A program made the position numbers and the translations under genes. The notes under the pieces were generated by a model that saw nothing but the letters and a program-made list of their open reading frames with translations, made no database searches and was not told where the DNA came from. From a virus, in the IMG/VR virus record IMGVR_UViG_3300037475_000070, positions 1 to 23,461 of that record: a stretch of 23,461 nucleotides of DNA. One strand, given 5' to 3'. Shown here in pieces: positions 372-16,720 of the stretch (positions within the stretch are counted from its first letter, which is position 1; every line of letters begins with the position of its first letter).

Positions 372-560
372 TTATTGCGTCTGACTTTCTAGCTCCATCG
401 CCATTCTCACCCACGGGTTGAACTGGTTTCTACGGTCGTACTCTTGGTTGATGACTTCGAGACTATTCTTCTGCTCGTATTGGTACAGTAGCTGAGTAAA
501 CTTCTCGGTCAATCGTTGCCGTTCTGCTTCATCCATAACGTTACGGTGTGCTTCCTTCAC
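372..560 (-). CDS. Small charged hypothetical protein
   Basis: This is a 62-codon leftward ORF if read from GTG at 560, or 54 codons from ATG at 536. The ATG is preceded by AGGAAG, but about 14 bases away, so neither start is decisive. The protein is rich in Glu, Gln and Arg and looks mainly helical (MDEAERQRLTEKFTQLL...), with no membrane segment or cysteines. It is the last gene of the leftward cluster. Its GTG start overlaps the end of the Mom-like reading frame, and the tRNA-like gene lies just upstream. No family recognised. It could be a small regulatory or accessory phage protein. Confidence 0.45.
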   Translation of the reverse strand: MKEAHRNVMDEAERQRLTEKFTQLLYQYEQKNSLEVINQEYDRRNQFNPWVRMAMELESQTQ

Positions 561-1545
561 GTGGAATTTGGAGCGGTGGCAGGGAATCGAACCCTGCTAC
601 CGAGTTGGAGCCCGGAGTCGCCTCTGACTGTTCCACCGCTCGTTTGGGATACGGCAACACTTCCCACCCTATCGACTTCTTCAAATCACGCACCGTTCGC
701 TTGTCGCCGTACACACCCACGTACCTCAGCTTCGGCGTGCCCTTGAAAAACTCAGCACCCTGTTCGATGAGTTTCGTCTTCATCTCAGCACGAGGCATCT
801 TATACTTCATCGGCTCACCGGGCTTGCGACCTCTACGGTCTCGACACAACTGGCTGACGGCACGTGAGTCCTGCACCTTACCGTTGAGCCGGAACAGCGT
901 TGGTGTTCCCGTCGAACCGCAAAAGAGCCACGAATTACTCTGGTAAATCTTCCCAACCTCGCGGGCCTCTCCATCGGCGTACGCCACGAAAAGGTTGAAG
1001 CCAAGCTCCACCATCATGTTGCACGCACGGTTAATCAGGTAGCTCCCACTGTTCGGGTGAGCCCACGGTGCTCGGGCACCTCTGACCAACGTGCAGACCC
1101 GGTGTGCGTTCTCGGCACCAGCTACCGACTTCGTGACGTTGGTGCCAGCCGTGCTACCGTAACACTCTACCGCTGCCAAGTAATCGCCAAAGAACAACCC
1201 AAATGACCAGCGGGTGGTACCCATTGCACTGTCCGTCATCACCGCCAGCCATTCGTACTTGGAGATGAGCTCCTTGGCTTGCTCGTACGGGATTTGACGC
1301 ACCGTAGCTTTGCGGAAGTCTTTGGCAGCTTCCCGTCGCAGGTCTTCATCAGGCTCAGGCGGGATGAGGTCACGGATGACCTTCTGATGGCACTCATGTT
1401 GGTGCTTACGGAGGTACTCGACACACTTCCTCTCGTACTCCGACAGAGAGCCATCGAGACCCTTCAACTGGCGCAGCTTGTCAGCCACCCGCTGACGGTA
1501 CGCCCGTTGCTTCTCTGCTCCGTTCTCGTACTTCTTTCTTGACAT
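541..1545 (-). CDS. Mom-like GNAT-fold DNA modification protein
   Basis: The protein has 334 codons and starts at ATG 1545 with AGGA six bases upstream. Residues 97-210 carry the pattern I associate with Mom-like, GNAT-fold phage proteins: KYEWLAVMTDS, a glycine-rich FGLFFGDYLAAVECYG strand pair, VRGARAPWAHPNSGSYLI, and AYADGEAREVGKIYQSNSWLFCG (about 188-210). Phage Mu Mom converts adenine in DNA to N6-carbamoylmethyladenine and so shields it from host restriction; that role is inferred here. The N-terminal 60 residues are basic (EKQRAYRQR) and may bind nucleic acid. The conserved part seems to end at LPYPKR (residue 302). Residues 303-326 are encoded by the overlapping tRNA-like gene, so the last 32 residues look like run-on into RNA-gene sequence. 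It follows the replication ATPase in the same leftward cluster. Confidence 0.65.
   Translation of the reverse strand: MSRKKYENGAEKQRAYRQRVADKLRQLKGLDGSLSEYERKCVEYLRKHQHECHQKVIRDLIPPEPDEDLRREAAKDFRKATVRQIPYEQAKELISKYEWLAVMTDSAMGTTRWSFGLFFGDYLAAVECYGSTAGTNVTKSVAGAENAHRVCTLVRGARAPWAHPNSGSYLINRACNMMVELGFNLFVAYADGEAREVGKIYQSNSWLFCGSTGTPTLFRLNGKVQDSRAVSQLCRDRRGRKPGEPMKYKMPRAEMKTKLIEQGAEFFKGTPKLRYVGVYGDKRTVRDLKKSIGWEVLPYPKRAVEQSEATPGSNSVAGFDSLPPLQIPREGSTP
569..639 (-). tRNA. tRNA-like gene, possible tRNA-Trp (CCA), unusual loops
   Basis: Read on the - strand from 639, the acceptor strand GCGGTGG (639-633) pairs perfectly with CCACCGC (579-573), followed by discriminator T and an encoded CCA (569-571). 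The T arm is canonical: stem CAGGG/CCCTG around TTCGATT. The D arm AGTC/GACT has a short loop that keeps A14, G15 and the GG pair. The anticodon stem CCGGG/CTCGG has five pairs including one G-T, but encloses only six bases, CTCCAA. This would read CCA (Trp) with one loop base missing. The variable region is three bases and position 8 is A rather than T. The gene is 71 bases including CCA, about five short. It is either a divergent phage tRNA or a tRNA mimic or degenerate copy. It lies wholly inside the 3' end of the Mom-like reading frame. Confidence 0.55.
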
Positions 1546-7942: not shown

Positions 7943-8194
7943 ATGGTCACCGTAACGCAGGACCCAACCAACCCGGAACGTCTGGTTCTGTCCATCACTC
8001 TCACCACCTACTTGGACAAGCTGCTCCTCCAGACCCTCTCCGATGAGGTCACCAACGCCATCCGTGCTCAAGCAGTGAAAGACCTCAGTTCCAACTCCGC
8101 CGTGAAGAAGCTAATCGCCAAGGCCGCAACCGCCAAGCTGCTCACCATGCTCGGTGCTGAGGCCGGTGCAGAGGTCGCTCCTGATGCCCAATAG
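7943..8194 (+). CDS. Hypothetical 83-aa protein opening the late module
   Basis: ATG 7943 follows AGGAG with nine bases of spacing, a good start. The protein has a beta-strand N-terminus (TVTQDPTNPERLVLSITLTTY) and two helices ending in an alanine-rich tail. There are no cysteines and no membrane segment. Its last 11 bases overlap the start of the glycosyltransferase gene. Position at the head of the packaging/virion module suggests coexpression with it. No family recognised. Confidence 0.65.
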   Translation: MVTVTQDPTNPERLVLSITLTTYLDKLLLQTLSDEVTNAIRAQAVKDLSSNSAVKKLIAKAATAKLLTMLGAEAGAEVAPDAQ

Positions 8195-9605
8195 CAATAT
8201 CAGTATGGTCGTCACATCCTGCGGTCGCCACGACCTTCTCCGCTCCACTCTGGAGTCGTTCTATCAGTTCACCGACATCGAGCCTCAGCAACTCATCATT
8301 GTTGAAGACTCCGATGCTGAGATGCCTGAGTTCCTGACCGACTTCATCTGGCGTCAGCGTAACCTTCTCTGGCTCGGCAACGGTAGACGCATCGGACAAA
8401 TCTACGCCATCGACCGTGCCTATGCGGAAGTGAAGCACGACTTCATCTTTCATTGTGAAGATGATTGGAAGTTTGTCGAAGGCGACTTCATCATGAAGTC
8501 CAAGCGGATTCTGGAACAGCATCCGGAGATTATTCAGGTCTCCCTCCGTGGCCCCAGTGGATGGCACCCCCTTCAGTCCGCCTTTAATGAGTACAAGGGT
8601 CTGGAAATTTCGTTCTTCATCGCCGAACCCTACTGGCGTGGCGGTTGGGGTGGACTCAGCTTCAATCCCGGCCTTCGCCGTACTGCCGACTATAAGAAGC
8701 TTGGCTCCTATGGCCGTCATGCTTCGTATGGCACCAGCGGTCTCGGTCACGAGTTCCAACTGTCGAAGACTCTGCTTGATGCTGGCTACCGCATTGCCGA
8801 CCTTGGACGAGAGATTGTTGTTCACACGGGCGGAACACGCTCCATGGCCGTCAAGCCGCTACCTCCGATGCCCAAGCTGCTCATCGCCGTCCCCGCTTGC
8901 TTCAAGTTCGAATATGGCCGTTGGGAGTCTGAGCAGTCGCCTTCCTACAACCAGTCAACTGCATGGGAAGGCCGGCCCTATGGCACCGACATTCACATCT
9001 CCGGTGACAATGACCGCATCGCTGCCATTCGTGACACATGGGCGAAGGACGTTTCGGTGTTCCCATACGTCACGCTCAAGTTCTTCTATGGGAAGCCCCC
9101 GACCGGCTACCCCCGCGAACCGCTTCCTGATGAGGTCTTCCTCGATTGTAAGGATGGCTACGCCCATCTTCCACAGAAGACCGTTGCCATCTGCCAGTGG
9201 GCGAATGAGCATGACGTTGACTACATCTACAAAGGGGATGACGATACCGCCGTCTACGTTGACCGGCTCGTCCGTGAACTTGCTCACACTCTGTTCGACT
9301 ATGCCGGTTGCGACCACCATGGTGTCTGCACAGGTGGCCCCGGCTACTTCCTCTCCCGTCGTGCCTTCCGGCTCGTAGCAACACAAGGCGGCTCTCCCGA
9401 CCATTGGGCTGAGGATGTGTGGGTGTCGAAGGTTCTCAACCGTAACAACATTTATCCGATGCTGCTTCCGGGTCACCGAGCCGGGTACACCGACCATTGG
9501 TTCTTCCCGAACGGCTACGACCCGACGTTGGAGCCGGAAGGCGTCGTCACCATGCACGCCATAAAGCCTGATGTGATGAGGCAGTGGCACAAGGAGAAGA
9601 AGTAA
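8184..9605 (+). CDS. Two-domain glycosyltransferase, GT2-like plus GT31-like
   Basis: The start is ATG 8184, with GAGG nine bases upstream, rather than the in-frame GTG at 8154; the product has 473 residues. The N-terminal half (about 5-225) is GT-A-fold GT2-like: NISMVVTSCGRHDLLRSTLESF, an IIVEDSD strand, and EDDW at 92-95 as the DXD-type metal site. The C-terminal half (about 240-473) has the ordered hallmarks of GT31 beta-1,3-glycosyltransferases: IRDTW (282-286), KGDDDTAVYVD from 350 with the DDD metal site, GGPGYFLS (384-391) and EDVW (410-413). Known GT31 enzymes are mostly eukaryotic galactosyl-, N-acetylglucosaminyl- or Fringe-type transferases that use UDP-sugars. The target here is unknown; candidates are a virion protein, modified DNA or host surface glycan. 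Its stop overlaps the next start (TAATG). Confidence 0.75.
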   Translation: MPNSNISMVVTSCGRHDLLRSTLESFYQFTDIEPQQLIIVEDSDAEMPEFLTDFIWRQRNLLWLGNGRRIGQIYAIDRAYAEVKHDFIFHCEDDWKFVEGDFIMKSKRILEQHPEIIQVSLRGPSGWHPLQSAFNEYKGLEISFFIAEPYWRGGWGGLSFNPGLRRTADYKKLGSYGRHASYGTSGLGHEFQLSKTLLDAGYRIADLGREIVVHTGGTRSMAVKPLPPMPKLLIAVPACFKFEYGRWESEQSPSYNQSTAWEGRPYGTDIHISGDNDRIAAIRDTWAKDVSVFPYVTLKFFYGKPPTGYPREPLPDEVFLDCKDGYAHLPQKTVAICQWANEHDVDYIYKGDDDTAVYVDRLVRELAHTLFDYAGCDHHGVCTGGPGYFLSRRAFRLVATQGGSPDHWAEDVWVSKVLNRNNIYPMLLPGHRAGYTDHWFFPNGYDPTLEPEGVVTMHAIKPDVMRQWHKEKK

Positions 9606-9781
9606 TGCCCATCAAGTCATTCACCTGTCCGCAATGCGGTGACCAGTTCTACCGCATCTACGGACGCCAAGAGTACGACGCAACCACCAGCGCAGAATGT
9701 CTGGAGTGTGGCACCGATTCACCCGCTGACACTCTGCCACTGCCAGCACGCAGAAATCCACAACACGGGATACAGAAATGA
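9605..9781 (+). CDS. Small zinc-ribbon protein
   Basis: ATG 9605 shares a base with the glycosyltransferase stop (TAATG) and has AGGAG eight bases upstream, so it is preferred over the longer frame from 9584. The 58-aa product carries CPQC and CLEC, spaced as in FmdB-like or rubredoxin-type zinc ribbons, followed by a proline-rich basic tail. Its TGA overlaps the small-terminase ATG. It may be a structural or regulatory cofactor protein. Function unknown. Confidence 0.6.
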   Translation: MPIKSFTCPQCGDQFYRIYGRQEYDATTSAECLECGTDSPADTLPLPARRNPQHGIQK

Positions 9782-10314
9782 CGTTTTCAAAACCTATAGA
9801 GAATGACTACGCGACCATTGATGGTTTGAAGACTCACCCCCTGTGGCAGCAGTTAACGGATAAGCAGAAGACCTTCGTCCTCACCTATATCGAGACGGAA
9901 GGCGACAGGCTGAAGTCCGCTAAGACTGCATTTGATGTGGAAACGGACAGGGCAGCAGTCGGAATGGCAGCACGCCTTCTCCGCAATTACCTAGTCCGTG
10001 GTGTTCTGTCCGCGTTCCATGGGTACGACATCGCTCATTCAACTGTTGGCAGGACTGAACTGTTGGCGATTATTTCCGCTCGTCTCCGGAGAACGGATTG
10101 TCCGTTCAGGGAATTCGAAGTGTTGACGCGCATGTACGCAGACATCAAGGGATGGCGTACCAACGTCAAGCCGGGTTTGAAGAAGAAGGTTGTGGAAGAG
10201 GACGAGGAAGAAGAACAAACGGCTCCGGAAGTGACCGACATTTTCAAGCTGGTGCAGCAATTGGAAAACAAAAAGAAGGTTGGCAATGAAGAAGACGAAA
10301 GTACAGACGATTGA
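9778..10314 (+). CDS. Terminase small subunit
   Basis: This 178-aa protein begins at ATG 9778 in an ATGA overlap. Residues about 24-70 (LTDKQKTFVLTYIETEGDRLKSAKTAFDV...AARLLRNYLVRGVL) match the helix-turn-helix DNA-binding domain of small terminases, whose classic form is LT.KQ..F...Y...G....AA..AG. The middle is helical (TELLAIISARL..CPFREFEVLTRMYADIKGW). The C-terminus is highly charged (KKKVVEEDEEEEQ, EEDESTDD), typical of the segment that contacts the large subunit. Small terminase recognises the packaging site and regulates the ATPase of the large subunit encoded at 10806. The intervening antisense gene splits the usual pair. Confidence 0.75.
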   Translation: MTFSKPIENDYATIDGLKTHPLWQQLTDKQKTFVLTYIETEGDRLKSAKTAFDVETDRAAVGMAARLLRNYLVRGVLSAFHGYDIAHSTVGRTELLAIISARLRRTDCPFREFEVLTRMYADIKGWRTNVKPGLKKKVVEEDEEEEQTAPEVTDIFKLVQQLENKKKVGNEEDESTDD

Positions 10315-10802: not shown

Positions 10803-10805
10803 TTG

Positions 10806-12419
10806 ATGGATAACAACGCCAAACAATTACTCGCACGTGCTCAGAAGCTGGTGGAGGAGCGGGAACGCTGCCTCACCGACAAGATGTACCTCGCCAACGA
10901 GGTACTCGGTTATCAATTCCAGCCCGACGTTCATCAGGAACTTTTCGACCAGTTCTTGAAGATGGATGCTTCCAAGTCCATCCTCATGCTGGATTCGGTC
11001 AAAGACCGCCTGATTCTCTGGCCGCGAAACCACTACAAGACCACCAGCCTCACCGTTGAGATTATTCAACTCGTCATCAACTTTCCCGACATTGAAATTT
11101 GCATCATGCGTTCCACTATGAAGCAGTCTCAAAAGTGGCTGAACGAAATTGCAGCCCACTTCAGCGGGGAAGCAGCAGGTTCTCGATTCAAGGAACTGTT
11201 CCCCGAGTTTTGCGGAACCAGAAAGCAGTTGAAGCAAACAGCCAACAAGTTTGTCGTGCCATGCGGCAAGAAGCAGCACCGCGAACCAACTGTCTTCATC
11301 GCATCGTTCACATCGGATACGACCGGAGACCACTATGACGTTGGATTTTTCGATGACCTCGTAACAAAAGACAACTTTCAGAACCCCACGCAGCTTGCAA
11401 AAGTAATCACCGGATTTTGGGCAATCACCCCTCAGGTGAAGCCCGGTGGTTATCGCTACGTCTCTGGCACCCGTTACGCCAACGGCGATTTGTACGACGA
11501 AATCATTCGCAAGAACACGAACAAGAACTGGAAGATTAGCGTCAAGGATTGCTGGACAGACGACCAGAAGGGCGTTCGCTTCCCGATGAGGGTTGTGAAA
11601 TTCCCCAATGGAGTTGAGGAACCTGTCGGCTTCACTCGTGAACTCCTGTTGCAGATTCAGGAAACAGACCCCGGCATGTTCAGCAGTCAGTATTTGAACC
11701 GTCCGGTGTCAGAGTCTTACCAAAGCTTCACTGAAGACCAGATGACTTCCGCACTGGTTGACCCGGAACAACACACCAACCTCTCTACGCCCGTCATCTT
11801 CGTTGATTTGGCTTCAGGTCAGGGTCCGAAGGCTGACGATTGCGTCATTGCGGTCGGGAAGATTGACCTCAAATCGAATATCTACGTGGTTGACGCCCGT
11901 GGCGGTAAGTGGTCTCCGGAACAATTCGCAATGAACGTCATCGACATGACTGTTAAGCACCTACCGCTGAAGGTAATGTTCGAGAACACACACTCCACGG
12001 ATTACTTTATTTCCCAACTTCGAATGATTGCCACGGAAAAGGGGATTCACATTCCCGTTGACAAACTCAAAGTAGATAACAAACCAGATGCCAAGATGAT
12101 TCGAGTCAAGGGACTCGCGAGTCTTCTCACCCGTGGTCGTCTCCGCTTCTTCAAGGGATTGTCCTGTTGGGACAAGATGAAGAAACAGTTCATCAACTTC
12201 ACGGGCGACAGGCACGTCCACGACGACTATCCGGATACCGTGGCTTTGATGGCGAACTACTTCATTGGAAGTGCTCCTCCGCCCCCACCGGCTGAGAGCA
12301 ATTACATGGTCGCTTTGCTTGAGCGTGCCCACGCTTTTCAGGAGCACCAAAGAATGCTGCAAAACTCCCAAGAGCCGCAGGACGAAGGCGGAGGAATGGG
12401 CTCAGACTTCGCGTGCTGA
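10806..12419 (+). CDS. terL: Terminase large subunit
   Basis: The start taken is ATG 10806; the in-frame TTG at 10803 is less likely. The 537-aa protein has an N-terminal ATPase: WPRNHYKTTS at 72-81 is the divergent Walker A (R-x-H-x-K-T form of large terminases), and DVGFFDDL from 178 is Walker B with acidic D183/D184. The C-terminal nuclease of RNase H fold shows IFVDLASGQG (first catalytic Asp about 334), VMFENTHSTDYF as the second acidic strand, and DRHVHDDYPD (about 468-477) as the third acidic site. The enzyme cuts concatemeric DNA and pumps it into the prohead through the portal encoded next. No Shine-Dalgarno is visible; CCCTTTAG precedes the start. Length is usual for the family. Confidence 0.93.
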   Translation: MDNNAKQLLARAQKLVEERERCLTDKMYLANEVLGYQFQPDVHQELFDQFLKMDASKSILMLDSVKDRLILWPRNHYKTTSLTVEIIQLVINFPDIEICIMRSTMKQSQKWLNEIAAHFSGEAAGSRFKELFPEFCGTRKQLKQTANKFVVPCGKKQHREPTVFIASFTSDTTGDHYDVGFFDDLVTKDNFQNPTQLAKVITGFWAITPQVKPGGYRYVSGTRYANGDLYDEIIRKNTNKNWKISVKDCWTDDQKGVRFPMRVVKFPNGVEEPVGFTRELLLQIQETDPGMFSSQYLNRPVSESYQSFTEDQMTSALVDPEQHTNLSTPVIFVDLASGQGPKADDCVIAVGKIDLKSNIYVVDARGGKWSPEQFAMNVIDMTVKHLPLKVMFENTHSTDYFISQLRMIATEKGIHIPVDKLKVDNKPDAKMIRVKGLASLLTRGRLRFFKGLSCWDKMKKQFINFTGDRHVHDDYPDTVALMANYFIGSAPPPPPAESNYMVALLERAHAFQEHQRMLQNSQEPQDEGGGMGSDFAC

Positions 12420-12464: not shown

Positions 12465-12474
12465 TTTAGATATA

Positions 12475-14439
12475 ATGCCGGGATTTGAGCACTTAGATTC
12501 AGCAGTGGACTTGGGAAAAGCCCTCGCTCCCATCACACCCGAAGAGGTTAAGACAGAAGACGAGTTATGGAGCGACGATGTTGCTCTTGGCATTGTTCTG
12601 TCTGATGTTGACTCCGGTGTTGCCTTCGAAAATTACAAGAACCATGTCATCAACATGGAGGCCGCTGACACGTTAGTACGTCAGTACGTCCCGCCTCGTA
12701 AGTGGCCTAACTCCGATAAAGACCGCTCCACTCTTGGCGTTCCTGTGGTGCTGGAAGCCATCGAGAAAATCATGCCGACGTTGCACATGTCCGTTTGGGG
12801 CAGCGGTAAAGACCCATTCTTGGTCACTCCGAAGGGCAAAACCAACCCTGCTGCTGCACGTGCATGGCAACACCTTCTCCGTTGGTGCGTTAAGACCTCC
12901 GGATTGAAGGAAGGCTCACGCCTGTCCATGAAGACCGCCCTTACCTATGGGTTCACTGTGGGCTCTTGGGGATGGGAGACGGAAGAGTACACACCAGAGC
13001 GGTACAAGATGTCCGACGACGGGCAGAACGTTGAGTTGGACGACTCAGTTGAGACCCAATGCATTCCGAAACCAAAGTTCGAGTGCATGAATCTTCGCAA
13101 CGTCGTCATTGACCCCGGTTGCTCCACTCAGGATGTTCGCCAAGGTCGATTCCTCGCGAAGCGTATCGCAATGACGGGCTATGAACTGGCTTCACTGCGT
13201 GATGACGAGAGCTACAAGAACATTCCGAGTGACGAGGAACTCAGTTTCATCCTCGCGACTTTGGCTGAGCCCACTGTCGATTCCATGCAGGGTCTCAAGT
13301 TCAACGAGACGCGAGAATTTCAGGCTCAGAAGGACACCGTAACAGCCAGCAAAGACCCGTTGGCTCAGAATCTCGAAATCATCGAATACTGGACGAAGGA
13401 CCGTATTGTTACGGTGCTTCAGCGCAAGATTGTAATCCGCAATGAGCAGAACGAGTTCAAGAAGCTTCCATTCGTCTCTATCGCCTTCATTGATGTCCTC
13501 AACTCTGCCTTCGGGTGGGGTGTTGCCAAGCTGCTGACTGGTGAACAGCGTCTTCAGCAAGGTGTGATGAACACATGGATTGATTCACTGGCTCTCCAAC
13601 TCAACCCGGCATGGCAGATGGCGAAGGGTGTGGGGGCAGGGAATCAGAACATCTCTATCGCACCCGGCAAGGTCGTCAGCACTGAGGGAGAACTAAAGCC
13701 TCTTGTCACCCCTTCCACAACCACGGAAGCGATGAGTGCAATTGAGGCTTCAGAGGAACGTGCCAATCGTCGTGTGGGTGCTAATGGTGGCTCAAACGTA
13801 CCGACACAGGCACTCCGCACAGGCACAGGTATTCAGGCGTTCCAAGGAGATGTGGTTCAACGTCTTCAGTATTTCTTGGAAATCTATCTGGACTTGTTCT
13901 TTGTTCCCGTGCTGGAGTCGATGCTCGGTCTCTGCAAGAAGAAGCTGACCCCGGCACAGATTAACCAGATTCTGTCCGATGAAGACGGCAACGCATATCA
14001 GGGCAACATCCTTGATGTTTACAACGCTGACGCACAGGTGGAAATCATCGCCGGTGTAAAGCTGACTACTCGCCAAGCCGCCGCTCAGATTGCGCCCATG
14101 CTCATGGAGATGTTGCAAGCAGGGGCGGTACAAACTAGCTTGCTCGTGCAGAAGAAGAAATTCGATTACACCGAATTCCTTCAGCAATACCTCGAACTTC
14201 AGGGTTGGGATGTTGACTCTCTCATCGTGGACGCCACGGATGAAGACATTCAGCGTGCTCAGCAAATGAACCCCGCATTCATCAAGGGTCAGAGCGAACA
14301 GCAACTTCAGGCACAGAAGCATCAGAACGACCTCGACAACATTGATGCCAAGGGGTCAATTCAGGCGCAAACCGCAGTTCTCAAGCAGACGGTCAAGGCA
14401 CACCTTGAAGCCGGTGAAGAGCAGGTTTATGGACAGTAA
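12475..14439 (+). CDS. Portal protein
   Basis: ATG 12475 is chosen because TTAGAGG lies upstream with suitable spacing; the same frame extends back into the terminase gene without a site. The 654-aa protein lies directly after the large terminase and has portal features: an N-terminal helical region (ENYKNHVINMEAADTLVRQYVPPRKWP), VPVVLEAIEKIMPTLHMSVWG, a LSMKTALTYGFTVGSWGWE motif, an acidic wing, a Gly/Ala-rich central FGWGVAKLLTGEQRLQQGVMN segment, and a Gln-rich C-terminal coiled coil. Portals are dodecameric rings at one capsid vertex through which DNA is packaged and ejected. The layout resembles podovirus-type portals. Its 3' end overlaps the next gene by 11 bases. Confidence 0.85.
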   Translation: MPGFEHLDSAVDLGKALAPITPEEVKTEDELWSDDVALGIVLSDVDSGVAFENYKNHVINMEAADTLVRQYVPPRKWPNSDKDRSTLGVPVVLEAIEKIMPTLHMSVWGSGKDPFLVTPKGKTNPAAARAWQHLLRWCVKTSGLKEGSRLSMKTALTYGFTVGSWGWETEEYTPERYKMSDDGQNVELDDSVETQCIPKPKFECMNLRNVVIDPGCSTQDVRQGRFLAKRIAMTGYELASLRDDESYKNIPSDEELSFILATLAEPTVDSMQGLKFNETREFQAQKDTVTASKDPLAQNLEIIEYWTKDRIVTVLQRKIVIRNEQNEFKKLPFVSIAFIDVLNSAFGWGVAKLLTGEQRLQQGVMNTWIDSLALQLNPAWQMAKGVGAGNQNISIAPGKVVSTEGELKPLVTPSTTTEAMSAIEASEERANRRVGANGGSNVPTQALRTGTGIQAFQGDVVQRLQYFLEIYLDLFFVPVLESMLGLCKKKLTPAQINQILSDEDGNAYQGNILDVYNADAQVEIIAGVKLTTRQAAAQIAPMLMEMLQAGAVQTSLLVQKKKFDYTEFLQQYLELQGWDVDSLIVDATDEDIQRAQQMNPAFIKGQSEQQLQAQKHQNDLDNIDAKGSIQAQTAVLKQTVKAHLEAGEEQVYGQ

Positions 14440-15703: not shown

Positions 15704-15733
15704 CTTAAAACTTTTCAAAAGGTGGATTTATTT

Positions 15734-16720
15734 ATGGCACTTCCTACAGCAGCATCCGTTGTATCCTCTGGTCTCGGGAACTACCCGACTGTTTATTATG
15801 ACCGCGTATCCCTCGATGTTCTCTACTCCAACCTGTTCATGTATCAGGCTCTTGACTTGCGTCCTATGCCAGCCAAGGCCGGTGTCGCAGAACAGCTTTT
15901 TGATTACACCGCCCCATCTGCTAATACCTCAGCAGTGACCGAAGGTACTCCGGGCTCTGGTCAGACAATGACCTCCAACACCCGCACGCTGAACATCAGC
16001 AACTACGCAGACTACATCACGTTCAGCAACAAGGTGGTCTTGACCGCGATTGATGACACCATCGGCATGGGTGCTCAACTTCTCGCTTATCGTGGTGCTC
16101 TCTCCGTTGACACGGTTATCAGCACTGCGGTCGATACCGAGGCTAACGCCGACGCCAACACCCGCATTGAAGTTGCTGATGGTAGCTACTTCACTGCTGC
16201 AATCGCCCGGAAGGCGGCTGCTCAGCTTCGTTCGGTGAACGTCAAGCCCAAGGCAAATGGTCTGTACTTCGGTATCTGCCACAGCCTCGTGACCTACGAC
16301 CTCATCAACGACTCGTCCGCTGGCGGCTTCACTGACCTCCAGAAGTATTCGGATTCAACGGCTGCGAAGAACCCGGCTCTTGCTGGAATCTCCGGAGCAC
16401 GTGTTGGTGTCATCGGTGGCGTGGAATTCTTCGAATCGAACGCGGTCCCGACCGAGACCAACTGGCAATCGTCCAGCCACAATGCGTACCACACGTACGT
16501 GTTCGGCCATCAGGCGTTTATCGGTTCGTCTCTCGAAAAGACCAACTTGAACCAGAAGAACTTCTCTGTGAAGGTTGCGCGTTTCGACCAAGGCAACTCG
16601 ATTGACCCGGCTGGTTTGATTGCGGCGGCTGCAAGCTACAACTTCTTCTTCGGCTGCGTGAAAACCACGGGCTCCACGAACAAGTTCCGCCGCATCCGCA
16701 GTGAGAGTTCAATTGGCTAA
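15734..16720 (+). CDS. Major capsid protein, N4-gp56-like
   Basis: ATG 15734 has AAGGTGG eight bases upstream; the in-frame GTG at 15722 is less likely. The 328-aa protein fits the N4-gp56 group of HK97-fold capsid proteins: an N-terminal YYDRVSLDVLYSNLFMYQALDLRPMPAKAG helix and strand, FDYTAPSANTSAVTEGTPGSGQTMTSNT, an ISNYADYITFSNKVVLTAIDDTIG segment, and a late GGVEFFESNAVPTE...YVFGHQAFI region followed by VKVARFDQGNSIDPAGLIAAAASYNFFFG. It forms the icosahedral shell. It sits directly after the probable scaffold with only 30 bases between, and is followed by a strong hairpin. Family placement is from recalled pattern; the capsid role is well supported by order. Confidence 0.82.
   Translation: MALPTAASVVSSGLGNYPTVYYDRVSLDVLYSNLFMYQALDLRPMPAKAGVAEQLFDYTAPSANTSAVTEGTPGSGQTMTSNTRTLNISNYADYITFSNKVVLTAIDDTIGMGAQLLAYRGALSVDTVISTAVDTEANADANTRIEVADGSYFTAAIARKAAAQLRSVNVKPKANGLYFGICHSLVTYDLINDSSAGGFTDLQKYSDSTAAKNPALAGISGARVGVIGGVEFFESNAVPTETNWQSSSHNAYHTYVFGHQAFIGSSLEKTNLNQKNFSVKVARFDQGNSIDPAGLIAAAASYNFFFGCVKTTGSTNKFRRIRSESSIG

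Follow-up and report, generated by a model that had tools for sequence, protein, structure and literature searches.

Gene context of the two-domain glycosyltransferase

The stretch of DNA analysed here (the window) is a viral contig of 23,461 bases whose source is an uncultured tailed phage, with the terminase subunits, an SU10-like portal and the major head protein encoded in order. An intact open frame of 473 aa, located at window positions 8184–9605 on the plus strand, opens with ATG at 8184 and closes with TAA at 9603–9605; it encodes a glycosyltransferase (GT) composed of two domains. The preliminary description had this continuous 473-residue frame correct in coordinates, length and reading frame, and its statement that the gene overlaps both neighbours also holds, with 11 nt shared with the upstream ORF and 1 nt (TAATG) with the downstream ATG. 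The genes that define the locus are as follows.

541–1545, minus strand: Mom-family DNA-modification protein (PF25680, 64 bits; phrog_1384)
7943–8194, plus strand: 83-aa ORF whose last 11 nt lie within the GT gene; L001 has a homologue; no family match
8184–9605, plus strand: two-domain glycosyltransferase, 473 aa (open frame, fusion in 14 viral records, AF2 model)
9605–9781, plus strand: small zinc-ribbon-like protein, start overlapping the GT stop (PF09723, 22.9 bits, below the cut-off of 34.4)
9778–10314, plus strand: terminase small subunit (phrog_51, 1.1e-6)
10803–12419, plus strand: terminase large subunit (phrog_38, 1.1e-47)
12469–14439, plus strand: SU10-like portal protein (PF23899, 91 bits)
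15722–16720, plus strand: major head protein (phrog_1357, 3.3e-25)

Most relatives likewise carry the GT gene directly upstream of the terminase, portal and head genes. The window protein falls in no PHROGs family and has no tblastn match among 50,697 named phage records; the same search of named phage records yielded no match for the three-domain protein of a relative, L034.

The C-terminal GT31 domain and its N-terminal GT-A partner

Modelling the complete protein with AlphaFold2 gave a confident structure (pLDDT 85.7, pTM 0.84) with two separate GT-A domains, which disposes of the alternative that the two halves form a single GT-A domain. Their predicted extents and the putative functional sites within them are listed below; invariance refers to 12 fusion proteins or, where given, to 30 N-domain sequences.

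8184–8858, plus strand: GT-A domain, GT2-like, residues 1–225 (about 1–217), from structure and profile
8457–8468, plus strand: EDDW, residues 92–95, putative DxD-type metal/nucleotide-sugar site; invariant in 12 fusions and 30 N-domains
8751–8753, plus strand: E190, putative catalytic base of the N-domain; invariant in 30 sequences, role suggested by the GT2 'ED' position
8823–8825, plus strand: H214, putative C-terminal metal ligand of the N-domain, invariant in 12 fusions
8868–9602, plus strand: GT31 domain, residues 229–473; PF01762 over cut-off, 17 best structural matches all GT31
9027–9041, plus strand: IRDTW, residues 282–286; T285 and W286 invariant in 12, aligned with 'R.AIRE.W' of B3GNT2
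9231–9263, plus strand: KGDDDTAVYVD, residues 350–360, DxD site; D352 and D354 invariant in 12, aligned with 'K(A/G)DDD' of GT31 enzymes
9333–9356, plus strand: GGPGYFLS, residues 384–391; G384, G385 and G387 invariant in 12, aligned with 'GG.GY..S' of C1GalT1
9411–9422, plus strand: EDVW, residues 410–413, with putative catalytic D411 (by analogy with GT31 enzymes); D411 invariant in 12, E410 not
9555–9557, plus strand: H458, putative C-terminal metal ligand of the GT31 domain, invariant in 12

The C-terminal domain is clearly GT31 by sequence and predicted fold. PF01762 (Galactosyl_T, GT31) scores 35.7 bits on the whole protein and 38.6 bits on the C-half (E 1e-8 to 1e-9), against a curated Pfam cut-off of 23 bits and with a domain span of approximately residues 226–473. 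A profile built from 12 sequences retrieved C1GalT1 (E 7.9e-11), B3GalT6 (6e-9), B3GNT2 (8.5e-8), B3GalT5 (4.8e-7) and CHSY3 (6.5e-6) among PDB sequences, with the motifs aligned. The 17 best structural matches of the model all lie on the C-domain and are all GT31 (Z 22.5–18.5, rmsd 2.3–3.2, 197–206 residues); for residues 226–473, B3GalT5 leads with Z 22.5, followed by CHSY3 (22.1), B3GalT6 (21.6), B3GNT2 (20.4), C1GalT1 (19.7, in an alignment starting from residue 172) and Manic Fringe (18.5), and GT31 precedes any other family. The four motifs named in the preliminary description occur in the order given and are kept in 12 homologues at 39–63% identity, and its reading of the C-half as GT31-like is borne out by the Pfam score and by profile and structure comparisons that favour GT31 over every other GT-A family. 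Judged on E-values, profile matches and motif conservation, the GT31 signal lies far beyond chance.

Assignment of the N-terminal domain is less specific. Predicted alone with 30 homologues, it adopts a confident GT-A fold (pLDDT 92.4), for which GT12, GT27, GT2 and GT13 enzymes are near-tied in structure comparison (Z 15–17), and profile matches include SpsA, TagF, PmHS2 and K4CP (E 5e-4 to 9e-3). The EDDW site and GT2-like pattern proposed earlier therefore stand at the level of fold, but in the window protein the domain scores below every curated family cut-off, PF00535 reaching 12 bits against 23.3; one relative, L034, passes with 25.5 bits. Because PF00535 stays under its cut-off, we call the domain GT2-like and not a member of GT2, a name that is fair for the modelled fold only.

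Both active sites look intact, each appearing to combine a DxD-type motif, an acidic residue and a C-terminal histidine: across the 12 fusions no substitution occurs at EDD 92–94, E190 or H214 of the N-domain, nor at D352, D354, D411 or H458 of the C-domain. This bears on the possibility that one domain alone is active and the other serves as a binding or positioning module, an arrangement known for some eukaryotic GT pairs; with three catalytic elements invariant in both domains across 12 sequences at 39–63% identity to the window protein, we consider it improbable here. Pairwise distances of the N- and C-halves correlate (r 0.74, Mantel 0/5000), so the two halves appear to evolve together. 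Between the window and L001, codon positions 1, 2 and 3 differ in 129, 120 and 227 codons, a pattern as for a protein under purifying selection. BLASTP of the N-half against the C-half yielded no significant match that would indicate internal duplication.

Distribution, architectures and neighbouring genes

The N-domain is fused directly to a GT31 domain in 14 viral records, one of them partial (L166). A second GT31 domain lies C-terminal to the fusion in L018 and L138, and an extra one N-terminal to it in L034, whereas L017 and L038 encode the N-domain on its own, in a gene next to those for GT31; this adjacency links both domains to one pathway. In L011 the codon homologous to the start of the fusion protein (5140) reads GGA where ATG, GTG or TTG would be expected, reflecting either a sequencing error or an unusual start.

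The occurrence of separate-gene and three-domain versions bears on a further reading, in which the protein would use its two sites to polymerize processively, building a polysaccharide of two alternating sugars as heparosan synthase 2 and the K4 chondroitin polymerase do. The Foldseek alignment of PmHS2 and K4CP does span both domains, and CHSY3 is among the best structural matches of the C-domain. However, the relative orientation of the domains is very different (rmsd 11–17 Å over both), and the separate and three-domain forms suit stepwise assembly better, which makes polymerization, in our estimate, quite unlikely.

Scanning a wider GT31 alignment over IMG/VR recovered 111 related stretches, with several GT31 genes on some of the matched contigs. 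Four viral contigs of 88–142 kb (L022, L023, L026 and L028) each carry several GT31-like genes, some in tandem, and in L025 (5014–7641) two GT31-like regions share an 876-aa frame with a domain of the GT11 fucosyltransferase type (PF01531, 108.6 bits). As a check on the nature of the larger GT31 contigs, the phrog_2 terminase gave a match in 4 of 14; PF04451 (NCLDV capsid) gave no match anywhere, controls included, and is uninformative on their giant-virus status. Of 297 Acidobacteriota genomes, 296 lack a PF01762 match over the cut-off, and the match in the remaining one lies on a phage contig binned in a MAG: this contig (L108, in an Acidobacteriaceae MAG from palsa) matches the IMG/VR contig L011 at 99.9% identity across 11,466 bases and is thus phage DNA that was binned with the MAG. 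The MAG copy has a split portal frame. The binning is a weak hint of an Acidobacteriaceae host.

A small methyltransferase gene adjoins the GT gene in L001, L011, L013 and L017; in the window, no methyltransferase gene adjoins it. Compared with solved proteins, these methyltransferases clearly match only MycE (3ssm), which we take to be a sugar 2-O-methyltransferase, and TylE, a demethylmacrocin O-methyltransferase (E 1e-10 to 2e-22), apart from one marginal match for L001. FkbM methyltransferase genes are present in L011, L013, L032 and L035. Since the fusion recurs in related phages, often adjoining sugar-methylating enzymes, these phages probably build small decorated sugars of their own. 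Related genes of cluster c9, GIY-YIG nuclease-like by eye, also lie near the GT cassette in L011 (4319–4816) and L032 (3080–4607).

Proposed function and comparison with known systems

We propose, with a probability of roughly 0.5, that the protein is a soluble bifunctional phage GT that transfers two sugars, one after the other, onto an acceptor made by the phage, most likely a virion protein, the glycan being O-methylated in relatives. Each domain, the N-terminal GT2-like one and the C-terminal GT31 one, would use its DxD-type site to bind a nucleotide sugar, and if both act in turn, one chain would add two sugars, one of them probably β-1,3-linked, as is usual for GT31. In several relatives, a MycE/TylE-like O-methyltransferase, an FkbM methyltransferase or both may then methylate the glycan. 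Catalysis by both domains, its order, the linkage and the donor sugars are what we infer, as is the acceptor, for which a virion protein seems most likely by analogy with mycobacteriophage virion glycosylation and PBCV-1 A064R. The position of the GT gene near head genes points weakly to a virion target. Sequential sugar addition and a phage-built glycan had been suggested in the preliminary description, and the sugar O-methyltransferases beside the gene in relatives strengthen that suggestion, the acceptor apart.

In a rather unlikely alternative, the enzyme would alter a glycan of the infected host's surface, LPS core or O-antigen, to block superinfection or change receptors. This reading gains from stand-alone relatives of the N-domain that reside in phage sugar clusters (L003) along with an epimerase/polysaccharide synthesis protein, a sugar nucleotidyltransferase and a rhamnosyl O-methyltransferase-like gene. 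However, the GT gene is located among late/packaging genes, and a GtrA-type flippase gene was detected in 0 of the 11 contigs of the group, which may be incomplete, with the positive control working; its absence is mild evidence against O-antigen conversion. A second target raised earlier, DNA modified by the Mom-like system, has lost ground. Glycosylation of DNA bases in series with this protein is suggested by the Mom-family gene of the window itself, but Mom is found in 0 of 12 further contigs that encode the enzyme, whether fused or split (1 of 13, the window only), and a thymidylate-synthase-type hydroxymethylase or base-hypermodification gene in 0 of 11, the control working and the contigs possibly incomplete in both counts. 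DNA modification is for these reasons very improbable.

GT31 enzymes make core animal and plant glycans, and the family is usually treated as eukaryotic; the papers searched contained no earlier description of GT31 in phages. That clear GT31 domains, with their catalytic residues, occur in more than 100 viral stretches but in a single Acidobacteriota genome of 297, and there on a phage contig, prompts one to ask where the family originated. More tentatively, tailed phages of soil-type samples (soil-type being an impression gained from the title of a single record, palsa) may harbour an extensive, so far undescribed set of GT31 proteins whose domains combine in architectures of their own (GT2-like+GT31, GT2-like+GT31+GT31, GT31+GT2-like+GT31, GT31+GT31 and GT11+GT31s). 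Together with sugar O-methyltransferases, this set would form a phage-encoded pathway for methylated β-1,3-linked virion glycans and might be a reservoir related to eukaryotic GT31/Fringe. Soil phages may thus coat their particles with self-made methylated sugars, and these bacterial-virus enzymes, probably soluble and available in fused and separate versions, could be used for direct tests of β-1,3 transfer and of two-step glycan assembly.

The window enzyme shares the GT-A fold and the DxD, GG.GY and (E/D)DV motifs with GT31 β-1,3-glycosyltransferases (B3GalT5/6, B3GNT2, C1GalT1 and Fringe), but it is encoded by a tailed phage, is fused to another GT-A domain and is about 20% identical to them. 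CHSY chondroitin synthases (CHSY3/CHPF) also join a GT31 domain to a second GT-A domain, and PmHS2 and K4CP carry two GT-A domains per chain; both groups are processive polymerases, unlike our reading of the window enzyme, and differ from it in domain partner and order. A tailed-phage protein, 'Fringe-like [Myoviridae sp. ctn8H20]' (A0A8S5QEQ3, BFVD), is 12% identical to the window protein over the alignment, and Fringe-like is in its case a UniProt database label only. In mycobacteriophages, capsid and tail-tube proteins are glycosylated by phage-encoded GTs such as Che8 gp110 and Corndog gp38 (PMC12363180), likened here by function, with GT families apart from the comparison. The closest parallels in virus-encoded multidomain GTs come from an algal virus, the chlorovirus PBCV-1, in a review of which (PMC9614988) the term 'GT31' is absent: A111/114R, with three GTs, assembles a portion of the glycan on the capsid protein (PMC9614988, PMC7826918), and A064R, with two GT domains and a methyltransferase domain, makes that glycan's methylated terminal disaccharide (PMC9614988). 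The methyltransferase of A064R belongs to the same chain, whereas in relatives of the window enzyme it is encoded by a neighbouring gene.
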